A stretch of DNA of 64,000 nucleotides from Alienimonas californiensis (GTDB taxonomy: Bacteria; Planctomycetota; Planctomycetia; Planctomycetales; Planctomycetaceae). The stretch covers positions 1,142,501 through 1,206,500 of the forward strand of contig NZ_CP036265.1 in the NCBI RefSeq assembly GCF_007743815.1, in the 5' to 3' direction. Positions 33,467-38,647 of this stretch are shown one piece after another. Below the pieces are notes generated by a model. It saw only the letters and a program-made list of their open reading frames with translations. It searched no databases and was not told the DNA's origin. A program made the translations under genes and the position numbers. Positions within the stretch are counted from its first letter, which is position 1, and every line of letters starts with the position of its first letter.

Positions 33467-34636
33467 ATGCGTCCGCAAGCCTCTTCTCGCCCGGTCGGCC
33501 GGTCCGGGTTCACGCTGATCGAACTCCTGGTGGTGATCGCGATCATCGCGATCCTGGTCTCCCTGCTGCTGCCCGCGGTGCAGCAGGCCCGCGAGGCGGC
33601 CCGCCGCAGCCAGTGCCAGAACAATCTCAAGCAGATTGGTCTGGCCATGCACAATTATCACGCTACTTATAAGATCTTCCCGGCGTCGATGGGCGGAACG
33701 ACGAACGTGAATTCCGCTACCACGCACAACAACGGCGAGCTGAGTTTCTTCGCCGCCCTGCTGCCGTATCTGGATCAGACGGCCCTGTGGAACCAGCTCA
33801 GCAAGCCGCTGGACGCGGACGGCGACGGCACGGCCGAATATCCCGCCTTTGGCACCCAACCCCGCGGCGGGAGCAACCTCAATTATCCGCCCTACCGTTA
33901 CCAGATCGCCACGCTGCTGTGCCCCAGCGACGGCACCGAGGCGGAGAGCGCCGGCGACACGAATTACGGCATCAACCACGGCGACAACGGCCTGTCCGCC
34001 GAGGCCGCCTCCGGGAACCGCGCCCGCGGCGCCCTCCGCTGCCGCGGCATGGCGGGGGGGCTTTATCAGGATTGCGCCCCATTTTATGTCGGGTTGAAAG
34101 ACGCCCGCGACGGCACGGTGAACACGTTGCTGCTCGGCGAGATCGCCCGCAGCGAGTCGAACCGCAGTTATCTCGGCGGGGCGGCCGAGAACCTCAGTAT
34201 GGCGACCGTGACCGTCGACAACCTCGTCTCCTTCGTCAATCCTCAACGGGACTGCATCGACAAAGTTCAGAACCCGGACGACCCCGGCCTCTACCCCGCC
34301 TCCGTCGGCTATGAATTCAGTCGCGGCAAGGCCTGGCCGATCGGCAGCGCGGAGTACACCGGCTTTACCACCATCACCCCGCCCAACGGCCCCTCCTGCC
34401 TGCGGCTGACCAGCCCCACCGACGGCAACCGCATGGGCAAGGGCATTCTGGCCCCCACCAGCTATCACACCGGCGGCGCCCAGTTCGGCATGGTCGACGG
34501 CAGCGTGAGATTCATCACCGAGAATATCGACACCGGCGACCTCTCCAAGCCGACCGGCGGCTACGGAAAAAGCAACTACGGCACCTGGGGCGGCCTGGGC
34601 AGCCGCGCCGGCGGCGAGGTCGGCGGCGAGTATTAG
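33467..34636 (+). CDS. DUF1559 prepilin-like protein (copy 3)
   Basis: A 389-residue paralogue with a 14-residue leader from ATG 33467, the same prepilin helix and [20 protein letters not shown], then a divergent globular domain. The end reads [16 protein letters not shown], again H-X9-DG. Compared with copies 1 and 2 it has an added Cys-containing insert ([16 protein letters not shown]). No terminator hairpin is seen behind it; the next gene is convergent 16 bases away. Confidence 0.9.
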
Positions 34637-34652
34637 GCCAGCCTCCCCGCGG

Positions 34653-35144
34653 TCACAGCACGCGCGGGGCGAGTTCGTCCAGCGCCTCCCGGCGGCCGGT
34701 CTCGGCGATCTCGAGACCGGCCGGCGTGGACATGTAATGCGGCGCCGCCTCGATCCCCAGCCGGATTAAGTCCAGCCGATCGCCGTCCCAGCAGGCGCCG
34801 ATCGTGGGGTCGTCCGTCGTCTCGCCGTCGGTATGCCGGGCGCAGGCCGCGACCAGCGTGGCCAGCCGGTCCGGTTCGAGTTGAAAGAACCGCCCGTTCA
34901 AGCGCTCCGCGAAGGCCCCCCCGCGGCGGCCGTGGTCCGGGTCGTGGCCGTCGTTCATCCGTCGGCAGTCGTGAAACAGGGCGAACAGGGTGACGACCTC
35001 CCCGTCCGCCCCGCAGGAGCGGGCGCAATACAGCCCGTTCCGCTCCACCCGCGCCCAATGCCGCGGCCCGTGGATGGAGTGATGGTCCGAGAACCCGGCC
35101 CCTTTGACCGTCGCGATCAGGCCGTCGGGATCGAAGATGGCCAT
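34653..35144 (-). CDS. HD-domain-like protein
   Basis: A 163-residue soluble protein with histidine/aspartate motifs resembling an HD-type metal-dependent phosphohydrolase: HGPRHWARV (His25 and His29), [17 protein letters not shown] (His58-Asp59, then further His). The substrate is unknown. The ATG at 35144 begins protein-like sequence; an upstream extension to 35237 would be encoded by repeat DNA and is unlikely. Confidence 0.68.
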
Positions 35145-35543
35145 GGGGCGGAGCGGGATGAAGAAGTCGGCGCTGGGTCCTACGAGTCCATCGTCACCTT
35201 GCCCCTCGTCGGGTGCCACTGGCTTGGCCAGTGGCACGGAGGACGGACGAGCGATTTAGAACGGGAACAGCAATCGGAAGCCGAACGCACTGGCAGAGCC
35301 AGTGGCACCCGAAAAAGCAAGGTGCTGTCGGGCCCCACCAGTGCCACCCGCCGAGCGTTCGGACATCGCCCCAGCATGCCTACAGCCTAAAAAGGCTGAA
35401 GGCATGCCACCCCGAGTGGAAAGGAAATCGCACGCCATCAGCATGCCACCCGCCCGTGTTCGGGGGCTACGAGAACGACAACGCTGGGGCACATGATCTG
35501 CAAGCTCACAGGATGTATCCCCAGAATCGAAAGATGATCTCGA
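35145..35543. repeat. Repeat-rich intergenic region (GTGCCACTGGC palindromes)
   Basis: 399 bases without a gene. GTGCCACTGGC-TTG-GCCAGTGGCAC is a perfect palindrome at 35213-35237; a second, CACTGGC-AGA-GCCAGTG, lies at 35288-35306, and half units occur near 35335-35347. Two ATGCCACC units follow at about 35403-35450, one preceded by AGCCT-AAAA-AGGCT. These look like copies of one or two mobile palindromic families piled up at the edge of the lower-GC island. Confidence 0.75.
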
Positions 35544-36398
35544 CTACATAGCTTCCGCAGTCCAGTTTAGCTCACGCATCTTGGCCTTTGTACGTTCGAC
35601 AAGTAAGGCAATCAGATTTAGCGTCTCAACGATTGCGTTGAGAGTTGACTCTAAGATTTCCATCAGTCTCGCCTGAGTTATTGACCCAAGCATTGCGTCG
35701 GAAAGACTGTTGGTCAGGCGGCAGATACTCCAATATGCATCTACTTCCCTTGTGAACTCTAGATCCTTTGAGACCGCCTTCTGCAACATTGCGTCCGCCG
35801 CACATACTCTCAGCATTCCCGGAAATCTTTCATACGCCCCGGTTTTCAGACCTTTTCGGGTTCGGTCTTCGGCTCTAGTCAAGATGTCTCTATTACGTTG
35901 CAACTCCACCCAGAACGCCGTGAGTATCGATAATTCCGCCCGATTTGCGGTGCCTATCGCTATCTTGTTCAACCCCACCAGTGATTTGCCGTCCATCAAC
36001 CGAACATTCGCCCCAAACGCCGGCCTCAATGAGTCGAAGAAGTGTCTCTTCGCTTGATCTGATATGCTCCCCCCATTCATTGCGTAGAATGTCGAGATCC
36101 TTTCCTCGGCTCCGGTATGAGGATGAAGAAACGGGGTGGCAAACGCCTGCTTGGCATCGTTTACAAGGTCAGCCCCAGCCGTGAGACTTATCGACGGAAC
36201 AAACTTTGCCTGAATCCCGTGGTAGACGACATGACCGAATCTATCTACCTCGCCAAACACGACATCCTTCCCGAACTCTGACGCCCCGTGGTAGTTCATC
36301 ACCACGGAGAAGCCTAGCCGCCGCATCAAGGGGATAAGGAACTCGTCGGTAAACTGTTCCTCGTTCTGATACTGCGTCAGTTCAGAAGCCAGTGCCAT
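35544..36398 (-). CDS. Putative restriction-endonuclease-fold protein in low-GC island
   Basis: A 284-residue protein whose DNA is clearly less GC-rich (near 50% by eye) than the roughly 70% around it. The first 70 residues read like a PD-(D/E)xK nuclease fold: an acidic helix (EEQFTDEFLIPLMRRLGF), then SEFGKDVVFGEVDRFG with Asp, and GIQAKF giving the QxK pair. The remainder is helical, with a C-terminal VETLNLIALLVERTKAKMREL segment. It may be a defence or DNA-repair nuclease gained by transfer. No methylase partner is seen next to it. Other roles are possible. Confidence 0.6.
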   Translation of the reverse strand: MALASELTQYQNEEQFTDEFLIPLMRRLGFSVVMNYHGASEFGKDVVFGEVDRFGHVVYHGIQAKFVPSISLTAGADLVNDAKQAFATPFLHPHTGAEERISTFYAMNGGSISDQAKRHFFDSLRPAFGANVRLMDGKSLVGLNKIAIGTANRAELSILTAFWVELQRNRDILTRAEDRTRKGLKTGAYERFPGMLRVCAADAMLQKAVSKDLEFTREVDAYWSICRLTNSLSDAMLGSITQARLMEILESTLNAIVETLNLIALLVERTKAKMRELNWTAEAM

Positions 36399-36604
36399 TT
36401 GTGAAGTAGGCGATGAAGAATGGGATCGGCAACTTTGCCGGAAGACAGGAGTAGTTCAACGTGGCAAAGCCGACAACCATGTTGCCCATCGATGCCGAAG
36501 CCCGGAGAGGGCTAAGCGGAAGCGGTCGGGACGCTGGAAAGAACCGGAAGCTTCGGGCAGGCTGCTGATTCCCGACCCGATGCCCACCGACCCGACCCGA
36601 ACCG

Positions 36605-36826
36605 ATGCCGAAGAAGTTTGCTGATTTCGTTTCGTCCGACGAGTTGCGAGAAGTTCACAGAGAGCTTGGACATGTGTACAACAGTATCAGTGAGATGATC
36701 GCCCGGCTCGACAACTCTCAAGACCCCAAAGACGGCGAAGCCCTGCCGAAAGTCGGTGTACTTGATGCGGCCAAGGCGCAGATCGCTGGAGTCATGCAGC
36801 AGATCGACGTGCTAGCGAAGTCCTGA
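36605..36826 (+). CDS. Small hypothetical helical protein
   Basis: A 73-residue protein, mostly helical and amphipathic (ELREVHRELGHVYNSISEM, AKAQIAGVMQQIDVLAKS), with a lower GC than the surroundings. It starts at ATG 36605. The composition looks genuine, but no family is recognised. It is divergent from the nuclease-like gene, 206 bases away, and lies in the same island. Confidence 0.5.
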   Translation: MPKKFADFVSSDELREVHRELGHVYNSISEMIARLDNSQDPKDGEALPKVGVLDAAKAQIAGVMQQIDVLAKS

Positions 36827-36878
36827 CCGTCACGCCGTTCGGCGGATAACCCCTACAAACAAAGGGTGAAGCGGCCGA

Positions 36879-37024
36879 GTGGCCGGGGTCGGCCCACAGT
36901 GGGTATGGGTCTTGGTGATGTCGTCGCCGGGCCGCCCCCGGAACAAGCGGCGTCGCTCTCCCGGGGGCGGCCGATTCGCGTCGAGACGCTCTCCGGACGC
37001 CGCTCGTCGGCCGACCCCGGCCAC
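36879..37024. ncRNA. Nested long hairpin, possible structured RNA
   Basis: A perfect 16-bp outer pair (GTGGCCGGGGTCGGCC at 36879-36894 with 37009-37024) encloses a perfect 12-bp inner pair (GGCCGCCCCCGG at 36930-36941 with 36961-36972). Both fit one coaxial fold of about 146 bases. The strand is unknown. It could also be a dormant repeat element. Confidence 0.4.
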
Positions 37025-37062
37025 CCCTGTTGACCTTGGGCACCATCAGGCTGCGGACGCTT

Positions 37063-37086
37063 CCCTCGCTGACGCTTCGGGTTGGT
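37063..37086. repeat. Half copy of palindromic repeat family A
   Basis: Only the right arm, CCCTCGCTGACGCTTCGGG followed by TTGGT, is present, just before the 3' end of the YifB gene. Confidence 0.75.
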
Positions 37087-37096
37087 GTTGAGGCGC

Positions 37097-38647
37097 TCAC
37101 CAAAACTTCCGATCCAACGCCCGATAATTAATCGCCTCGCTGAGGTGGCCCGGGCCGATGCGGTCCGCGGCGTCGAGGTCGGCGATGGTGCGGCCGACGC
37201 GCAAAATGCGGTCGTGGGCGCGGGCGGAGAGGCCCATTTCTTCCATCGCGGCTTTCAAGAGTTGCTCCGCGTCGGCGTCCAGTTCGCAGTGGCGGCGGAT
37301 CTGGCGGGCGGTCATGCGGCCGTTCAACATCGCCTTGCCGCGGGTCTCCGGGTCGGCGTCGAACCGCTCCTGTTGGCGCTCCCGGGCGGCGAGGACCTGG
37401 GCCCGCATCGTGGCGCTGTCGGTGCCGGGCTTTTTGTTCGACAACTCCCGGAAGGGCACCTGCGGGACTTCGAGGTGAATGTCGATCCGGTCCAGCAGCG
37501 GGCCGCTGATCTTGGAAAGATACCGCTCCACCGCCGCGGCGTTGTCCGCCTTGCGGCCGGCGCCGTCGTCGGCGTGGTAGCCGCTGGGCGTGGGGTTCAT
37601 CGCCGCCACCATCATAAACCGGGCCGGAAACTCCCGCGTGCCGATCGCCCGGCTGATCGTCACCCTTCCTTCTTCCAACGGCTGCCGGAGCACCTCCAGC
37701 GTCTTCCGATTAAACTCCGGCAGTTCGTCGAGGAACAACACGCCGTTGTGAGCCTGACTAATTTCCCCCGGCCGCGGGACGCTGCCGCCGCCGACCAGGC
37801 CGGCCTCGCTGATCGTGTGGTGCGGCGTGCGGAACGGCCGCTGCAACACCAGGCTCCGCCCGTCCCGCAGTTTTCCTAACGCGCTCCAGATGCGGGTCGT
37901 CTGCAGGCTTTCCTCCGCCGACAGCGGCGGCAGGATCGTACCGAGGCGGGAGGCCAATAACGTCTTACCGGTGCCGGGGGGGCCGATCATCAATAAATGA
38001 TGACTGCCGGCGGCGCTGACGGTGACGGCCCGTTTGGCGAACTCCTGGCCCTTCACGTCGGCGTAGTCGACGGTGTAGCCCTCGTCGGAGGCGACGGCGT
38101 CCTCCCAGCGGAAGGGGTGCGGGTCGATGTTTAACTCGCCGGTGTAGAACCCGACCGCCTCAGCGAGGGAGCCGACGGGGATCGCTTCGATCTCCCCCAC
38201 CACGGCGGCCTCGGCGGCGGTTTCGGCGGGGACGAGAATGCCCCGCAGGCCCTGCTGGCGGGCGGCGAGGGCCATGCTGAGCACCCCGCGGATCGGCCGC
38301 AGCGACCCGTCCAGCCCCAGCTCGCCCACGGCGGCGTACTGCTCGAACCGTTCCGATAAAAACTGCCCGCTGGCCGCCAGCGTGCCGAGAGCGATCGGGA
38401 GGTCCAGCCCGGGGGCGTCCTTGGGCAGATCGGCCGGGGAGAGGGCGATGACGATGCGGTCGACGGGCCGGGTATAGCCCGAATTGACCAGCGCCCGCTC
38501 GATGCGGTGGGTGCTCTCGCGGGTGGCGGCCTCGGCGAGGCCGACGAGCGTCGTTTTGGGCAGCGCCGCGGGGGAGATGTCCACCTCCACCGCGACCGGC
38601 TCCGCGTCGATGCCGTATAAAGAGTAGCTCCGCAATTGGGCCAGCAT
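37097..38647 (-). CDS. YifB/ComM-family AAA+ Mg-chelatase-like protein
   Basis: A 516-residue protein with a ribosomal-S5/Lon-like N-terminal domain (SYSLYGIDAEPVAVEVDIS), the Mg-chelatase AAA core with Walker A GPPGTGKT, LFLDELPEFNR as Walker B, and a C-terminal helical domain ending in GHLSEAINYRALDR. ComM in Vibrio is a branch-migration helicase used in natural transformation, and this suggests a recombination role here. Full length for the family. ATG at 38647. A half repeat lies beyond its 3' end. Confidence 0.92.
   Translation of the reverse strand: MLAQLRSYSLYGIDAEPVAVEVDISPAALPKTTLVGLAEAATRESTHRIERALVNSGYTRPVDRIVIALSPADLPKDAPGLDLPIALGTLAASGQFLSERFEQYAAVGELGLDGSLRPIRGVLSMALAARQQGLRGILVPAETAAEAAVVGEIEAIPVGSLAEAVGFYTGELNIDPHPFRWEDAVASDEGYTVDYADVKGQEFAKRAVTVSAAGSHHLLMIGPPGTGKTLLASRLGTILPPLSAEESLQTTRIWSALGKLRDGRSLVLQRPFRTPHHTISEAGLVGGGSVPRPGEISQAHNGVLFLDELPEFNRKTLEVLRQPLEEGRVTISRAIGTREFPARFMMVAAMNPTPSGYHADDGAGRKADNAAAVERYLSKISGPLLDRIDIHLEVPQVPFRELSNKKPGTDSATMRAQVLAARERQQERFDADPETRGKAMLNGRMTARQIRRHCELDADAEQLLKAAMEEMGLSARAHDRILRVGRTIADLDAADRIGPGHLSEAINYRALDRKFW

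Follow-up and report, generated by a model that had tools for sequence, protein, structure and literature searches.

A low-GC nuclease-like gene between GTGG-footed REPINs: a possible exchangeable slot in a planctomycete chromosome

Results and Discussion

At positions 35145–37096 of a 64-kb window, the whole stretch of DNA that was analysed, the source genome (G000; 5.48 Mb, single contig) carries a foreign-looking gene for a nuclease-like protein, P0001, in a low-GC segment edged by REPINs (G000:C1 1177645–1179596). With about even confidence we read this segment as one of a number of chromosomal slots, in which a conserved core gene and GTGG-footed REPINs accompany an exchangeable low-GC cargo that would be replaced by recombination. 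We describe here the low-GC islands, the anatomy of the REPINs, their linkage to RAYT genes, the difference in cargo at conserved sites and the excess of defence families among the cargos, and we infer that the cargo is exchanged by recombination at REPIN-marked sites.

Layout of the low-GC island

The layout of the segment is given in Table 1. A drop in GC over the nuclease-like gene from about 70% in its neighbours had been proposed from the letters alone and was borne out, as the cargo gene has a GC content of 0.513 compared to 0.709 for the HD-like gene and 0.687 for the YifB gene, and a third-position GC of 0.596 compared to 0.896 and 0.888. Nowhere else in the window does the 1-kb GC profile fall below 0.65, and 35241–36930 is by far its longest low-GC stretch. 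An even sample of the same genome (33 stretches of 20 kb at roughly even spacing; 660 kb, GC 0.71) contained just two islands of at least 1 kb with a GC below 0.58. The YifB gene was matched in all nine genomes searched, and the Pfam HD match of the gene on the other side is weak (E 0.041, under the cut-off). An Rfam search of 34500–37600 gave no match up to E 1. The 73-aa ORF upstream of the nuclease-like gene might be a partner of it or a chance ORF; it showed no Pfam match up to E 1 and no PADLOC match up to 0.01.

Table 1: Features of the studied segment and its flanks (window positions).
Feature	Position	Strand	Basis or remark
Left flank: HD-domain-like gene, native GC	34653..35144	-	ORF, start codon chosen by hand at 35144
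Class A REPIN, GTGCCACTGGC palindromes, foot CCACCC near right end	35169..35352	.	ends by eye; model match 35177–35358
Class A2 REP cluster (GCATGCC...GGCATGCCACCC)	35372..35456	.	further copies at 626 kb and 1375 kb
Cargo gene P0001, 284 aa, PD-(D/E)xK-nuclease-like (E13, D45, Q63-x-K65)	35544..36398	-	ORF and alignment
73-aa ORF, divergent, low GC (0.541); may be a second cargo gene	36605..36826	+	ORF
Class B REPIN, nested hairpin, feet GTGG/CCAC	36874..37027	.	fold and alignment
Class C REP (abundant, CGTC-containing, unrelated to the others), half copy	37056..37095	.	
Right flank: YifB-type Mg-chelatase-like ATPase, conserved anchor gene	37097..38647	-	Pfam Mg_chelatase 3.8e-85

The sequence-only reading had taken the segment for a transferred one and had named the same genes at the same place with similar GC in related genomes as the finding that would speak against it. 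No such arrangement was found in G001, the one same-genus genome searched, which has a different low-GC gene at the orthologous YifB, and relatives of P0001 were found in 2 of the 58 other genomes searched. The cargo as a foreign-looking gene in a transferred segment is therefore supported.

Anatomy of the repeats

The repeats at both edges are REPINs, that is inverted palindromes with a GTGG/CCAC foot. The palindromes that had been noticed at one edge are present as GTGCCACTGGC at 35213 and GCCAGTGGCAC at 35227 and 35298, as are the nested hairpin and the half repeat at the other. In the class A copy two 25-nt inverted arms (35209–35233/35288–35312) are 92% complementary. The unusual feature is the folded array and not the bare 11-mer of the palindrome, which is found at 12 genome places against 12 for its backward control and thus is not over-represented. 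Folding gave z -5.15 for class A (35183–35332) and z -4.59 for class B (36874–37023) with none of 200 shuffles folding as well as either array, and other 150-nt pieces fold variably (L096 z -2.90, L083 right end -2.04, L088 0.00). The feet were located at 36879 (GTGGCCGGGG) and 37015 (CCCCGGCCAC) for class B and at 35336 (CACCAGTGCCACCCGCC) for class A. This GTGG foot together with the inverted CCAC foot agrees with the definition of a REP by a 5' GT[AG]G tetranucleotide at the foot of a hairpin, as worded in excerpts of two papers (PMC6006769, PMC3686654). Of the further REP/REPIN criteria, the window repeats show a foldable inverted doublet, multiple dispersed copies and a cognate RAYT with the same REPs.

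The distal end of another island revealed a fourth class, D (GGGTGGCTGGGGC...GCCCCAGCCACCC). The ends GGGTGGC/GCCACCC, with variants, are common to the classes and the stem word differs, as seen by eye in the alignments. G000 holds at least six full-length places of class A, at least four of class B and, from a pattern search, six of class D, three of them with both ends exact. Covariance models for A and B were run on 12 genomes with the best 150 first-look candidates scored per genome, so that elements may be missing: class B was found in G000 and G001 only, class A in full length in G000, G001, G003 and weakly in G039, with a part copy in G040. Like published REPINs, RAYTs and REPtrons, the elements have a GTGG foot with an inverted CCAC, palindromic arms, doublets, dispersed copies and several families per genome, and copies flank a tyrosine transposase gene. 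Unlike published REPs they form one superfamily with variable stem words (CACTGG, CCGGGG, CTGGGGC, CATGC) and a low copy number. As a side observation, class C (which contains GCGTCAGCGAGGG and has the CGTC tag) flanks a Y1 transposase on both sides at about 956 kb of G000 (L105 3565–4270); according to excerpts of PMC3733652, CGTC REPs have no transposase dedicated to them.

REPINs and low-GC islands

GTGG-type REPINs mark low-GC single-gene islands, as shown here for this genus only. With an island defined as at least 700 bp of mean GC below 0.585, 9 of 13 loci with full A, B or D elements in G000 lie within 300 bp of an island, compared to 2 of 78 merged loci from five further repeat families (3/90 counted apart) and 0.6% of random positions in the even sample. 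The difference between element loci and merged controls is significant (Fisher p 4.6e-8; 2.6e-7 without the element locus of the window), where A, B, C or D sites were part of the reason for choosing the 1.05 Mb of fetched G000 sequence with its 13 islands, most islands were found via element loci, and partial elements (621, 626, 1816 and 2054 kb) are excluded from the 13 loci. By family, the controls gave 2/27 for class C and 0/17, 1/19, 0/12 and 0/15 for four Y1-linked families with some overlap, and both control loci near islands belong to islands that carry GTGG elements. Copies of A, A2 and B elsewhere adjoin, in most loci fetched, other low-GC stretches of 1–2 kb.

At four of the 13 loci with full elements (2054, 2357, 2535 and 5308 kb) no island is called at this threshold; the cargo at 2054 kb, with a GC of 0.56, misses it. 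In a small blind test with three unread full D loci of G000, two abut islands (1596 and 4264 kb) and the one at 2535 kb does not, and a half D at 621 kb as well as a D on contig 155 of G001 are surrounded by sequence of normal GC. What fraction of the islands carries REPINs can be judged from the two even-sample islands only, one of which has a degenerate B at the cargo 3' end while none was seen at the other. The latter (L113 18731–20000, about 869 kb of G000) lies beside a transposase-like gene and is cut by the end of its stretch.

In G003, which is of another genus, A-type palindromes are numerous, yet mostly between ordinary genes, and 2 of the 15 stretches read hold an ORF of GC ~0.4 within ~1.5 kb. 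The link between REPIN and cargo is missing from G003 and from most of the other RAYT loci read, the groEL locus of G013 being an outlier, and is thus shown for this genus only. The common G003 palindromes (L182–L196) have the stem word CACTGGC, and several of these stretches adjoin GGGTGGCCCAGCCGTTCATG-like repeats.

The same arrangement might also arise if accessory sites merely tolerate insertions, so that REPINs pile up there without a role and the cargo comes in by ordinary horizontal transfer, a possibility to which we give modest weight. REPs generally lie near 3' ends and prefer intergenic space according to excerpts of PMC3733652, and a REPIN beside the stop codon of a cargo therefore proves nothing; some full elements also sit alone, and the surroundings are mostly ordinary in other genera. 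However, the five other repeat families of G000 would be expected in the same havens and are near islands at the few loci given above. In excerpts of PMC3390384, moreover, the REPs of Pseudomonas avoid acquired regions and acquired genes fall in "REP deserts", so that the concentration at low-GC exchangeable genes found here is the reverse of the published pattern.

Link to RAYT genes

The sequence-only reading had further called the segment mobile, and here the repeats turned out to be REPINs of a RAYT system, while a movement of the cargo is suggested by the site comparisons below. The model for REP-associated tyrosine transposases (NF047646, cut-off 80) gave 89.7 bits in G000, 88.9 in G001 and 92.2 in G013, and RAYT homologues at E<=1e-10 are present in 46 of 79 genomes. 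The G000 RAYT has a reading frame without stops and is located at 1215.6 kb, where this genome has its groEL; it adjoins a low-GC cargo and is flanked by D copies and an A-like copy. We had considered G000 to be a genome without a cognate RAYT, as a PF01797 search missed this gene, and dropped this idea when the G013 protein found it. In G001 one RAYT neighbours two D copies at the groEL site, and another (contig 314) has a class B copy 31 bp away; no RAYT beside a class B copy was seen in G000. In G013, which belongs to another genus, the groEL-dnaJ interval contains a RAYT gene, a half element and two D-like copies that enclose a small ORF. Among the 26 RAYT loci that are complete on both sides, of 30 returned, the foot word occurs within 250 bp of 22, as GGGTGSC on the upstream or GSCACCC on the downstream side and in nine cases on both, compared to 1/26 upstream and 0/26 downstream in control windows 1–1.25 kb off these loci.

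The PF01797 search of G000 gave five Y1 transposases, each by eye beside short repeats of another family. Those at L103, L104, L106 and L107 each adjoin short repeats of their own, and with these four further Y1-linked sets the number of REP-like families in G000 is probably six or more, with overlap between two of them at some loci. The idea that every RAYT locus carries cargo was given up, as visual inspection of 16 stretches from twelve genomes showed mostly ordinary neighbourhoods. In G013 a PDC-M36A-like gene of GC 0.45 (L287 3685–5022, E 7.3e-28) starts just past a GGGTGGC repeat, and partial RAYT copies come after it.

Comparison with a sister genome

At all ten sites compared between G000 and G001 a flank is conserved and the cargo is different or missing (Table 2); the G000 islands at 1246, 1373, 2423 and 5075 kb are not part of this set, and at the YifB and M16 sites one flank is readable in G001, the contig ending at the repeat in the case of YifB. 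BLASTN between cargos of the same site revealed no similarity, and BLASTP among 22 cargo proteins linked just ATPase-type pairs from different sites. A same-class REPIN is found in both species at five of the ten sites (RNR, acs, ispG, groEL and L090/L098), with an unbroken alignment through the REPIN at the L090/L098 site only; because members of one class look alike in any event, finding the same class at a site in both species does not establish orthology. In G013 the ispG site encodes a TIR-like protein (NCBIfam Thoeris ThcB4, E 1.1e-10, under the cut-off).

Table 2: Cargo at ten sites in both species (flank names such as RNR, acs, ispG, leuC and groEL were read from translations).
Site	G000	G001
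YifB	nuclease-like P0001	Abi_alpha gene, 246 aa
RNR	TIR protein	fused AriAB
M16 peptidase	OLD-like	GmrSD
ispG	AAA ATPase	140 aa
groEL	PD-T7-3-like	429 aa
acs	353 aa	279 aa
leuC	286 aa	no low-GC gene
DUF4145	221 aa	197 aa
DUF3644	PDC-S19	no low-GC gene
L090/L098	495-aa gene, GC 0.62, no PADLOC match	224 aa

One island may record a movement. At about 1373.4 kb of G000 a 129-bp groEL 3' tail (L084 3416–3545), 88% identical to the resident groEL, sits between a B element and a PEP-CTERM cargo gene, and the D copy of this island resembles those at groEL in G001. This suggests that a segment of the groEL site has moved there; alternatively, the tail is the remnant of a second groEL copy. Such a transfer would fit a composite transposition, in which the RAYT as an HUH single-strand transposase excises and inserts the whole REP-to-REP stretch with its cargo in the manner of the IS200/IS605 transposases. 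REPs lie on both sides of the cargo in the window (A/B), at L083 (A/D) and at L084 (B/A), the two similar copies around the small ORF of G013 have a RAYT adjoining, and the G000 RAYT has an open frame. We nevertheless consider this explanation unlikely, as the persistence of same-class REPINs in both species while the cargo changes fits resident anchors better and no two islands among the 22 cargos have the same one.

Exchange of cargo between resident anchors is the most economical reading, since both the flanks and the class of the REPIN are retained at sites whose cargo is not. Following this model, the RAYT would act on single-stranded-DNA hairpins and so plant and maintain the REPINs, a role that is suggested by the REPINs adjoining RAYT genes and by what has been published on the biochemistry of these transposases. 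Homology anchors would then be provided by the core gene and the resident REPIN, between which DNA of other strains replaces the cargo by recombination and the anchors stay, as the conserved flanks and the same-class REPINs with different cargo indicate. Each slot would hold one, sometimes two, low-GC cargo genes that are frequently anti-phage.

An old resident gene that lost its GC locally without any transfer is very improbable: the cargo gene does retain some codon structure (GC1 0.537, GC2 0.407, GC3 0.596), but the sister genome has another gene at the same place and relatives of P0001 are as rare as stated above. Chromosomal integron cassettes are single-gene units with a folded 3' site that are moved by a tyrosine recombinase, and the attC core reads GTTRRRY/RYYYAAC. 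By eye, most islands resemble such cassettes in having single-gene cargo with a long, imperfect hairpin next to its stop codon, but an integron-like origin is hardly credible and the identification of the element as attC was rejected, since the A and B elements in alignments A1 and A2 end by eye in GGGTGGC/GCCACCC instead of this core, the slots are dispersed and form no array, and such elements flank RAYT genes in place of a gene for a site-specific tyrosine recombinase.

Defence families and the nuclease-like protein

At E<=1e-10 PADLOC models matched 6 of 22 cargos (models TIR, OLD-like, fused AriAB, GmrSD-like, PD-T7-3 and PDC-S19; the six cargos belong to the loci L083, L086, L100, L112, L200 and L242, in no particular order) compared to 1 of 33 ordinary genes (Fisher p 0.013), with the list of 22 drawn up after part of it had been scanned. 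The control consisted of gene-like ORFs picked by rule from the even sample, and its sole match was IetA. The other 16 cargos, P0001 among them, matched no PADLOC model at this threshold; they include a PEP-CTERM protein (L084), a PIN-domain protein (L085) and several unknowns. The Abi_alpha gene at the YifB site of G001 was identified with Pfam (E 3.9e-7). Conserved flanks with a variable defence cargo between related genomes are also typical of defence hotspots and islands, whereas here mostly one gene is found per slot, the slots are many and REPIN-marked, and no prophage, integrase or conjugative genes were noticed by eye in the slots read.

A bolder and rather doubtful possibility is that RAYT/REPIN pairs form a capture-and-exchange system, with REPINs as attachment sites where transposase or recombination would load interchangeable anti-phage cargo. 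If true, this would explain what genomes gain from keeping RAYTs, a benefit long sought; why they are kept as near-domesticated genes is called an open question in excerpts of PMC6006769. A REPIN class that marks exchangeable defence slots would offer a testable benefit for RAYT retention, and no paper tying REPINs or RAYTs to defence cargo was among the matches listed from a mostly non-subscription literature. GTGG REPINs could also serve as a sequence handle for new defence genes in GC-rich planctomycetes, where the unmatched cargos including P0001 become defence candidates.

In P0001 itself the GKDVVF...QAKF pattern pointed out earlier is present, and E13, G43-K44-D45, Q63 and K65 are invariant in all seven aligned sequences. 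We take E13, D45, Q63 and K65 to be catalytic and to form a PD-(D/E)xK site of the QxK kind. These residues are what argues for the proposed PD-(D/E)xK fold, whereas P0001 matched no family among the Pfam, NCBIfam and PADLOC models and an AlphaFold2 model from two sequences was unusable (mean pLDDT 41.3). PDB sequences contained no convincing relative and no nuclease, only a chance-level MarR hit (E 0.24). With Mrr-like and other PD-(D/E)xK restriction nucleases the protein shares D45 and Q63-x-K65, and differs from them in having no curated family match; its relative in G015 has a weak Mrr_cat match (E 0.049, under the cut-off). A role in defence, which the sequence-only reading had also suggested, is plausible by the company of the gene, namely the sister gene in G001 and the cargos of other sites, and not by any match of P0001 itself. 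Judged from motif and company, the cargo most likely encodes a nuclease that would cut invading DNA.

The two genomes with relatives are G015 (40% identity over the alignment) and G022 (weak), and a scan of genome contigs gave the G015 protein again as the single relative. Viral contigs and phages yielded none. Further relatives come from 23 plasmid records, the best 20 of which show 24–28% identity over approximately residues 12–143, and four plasmid relatives aligned from the 5 of 23 records opened are unlike P0001 outside the N-terminal domain. One plasmid relative adjoins VapBC, a HEPN nuclease and an AAA ATPase gene.
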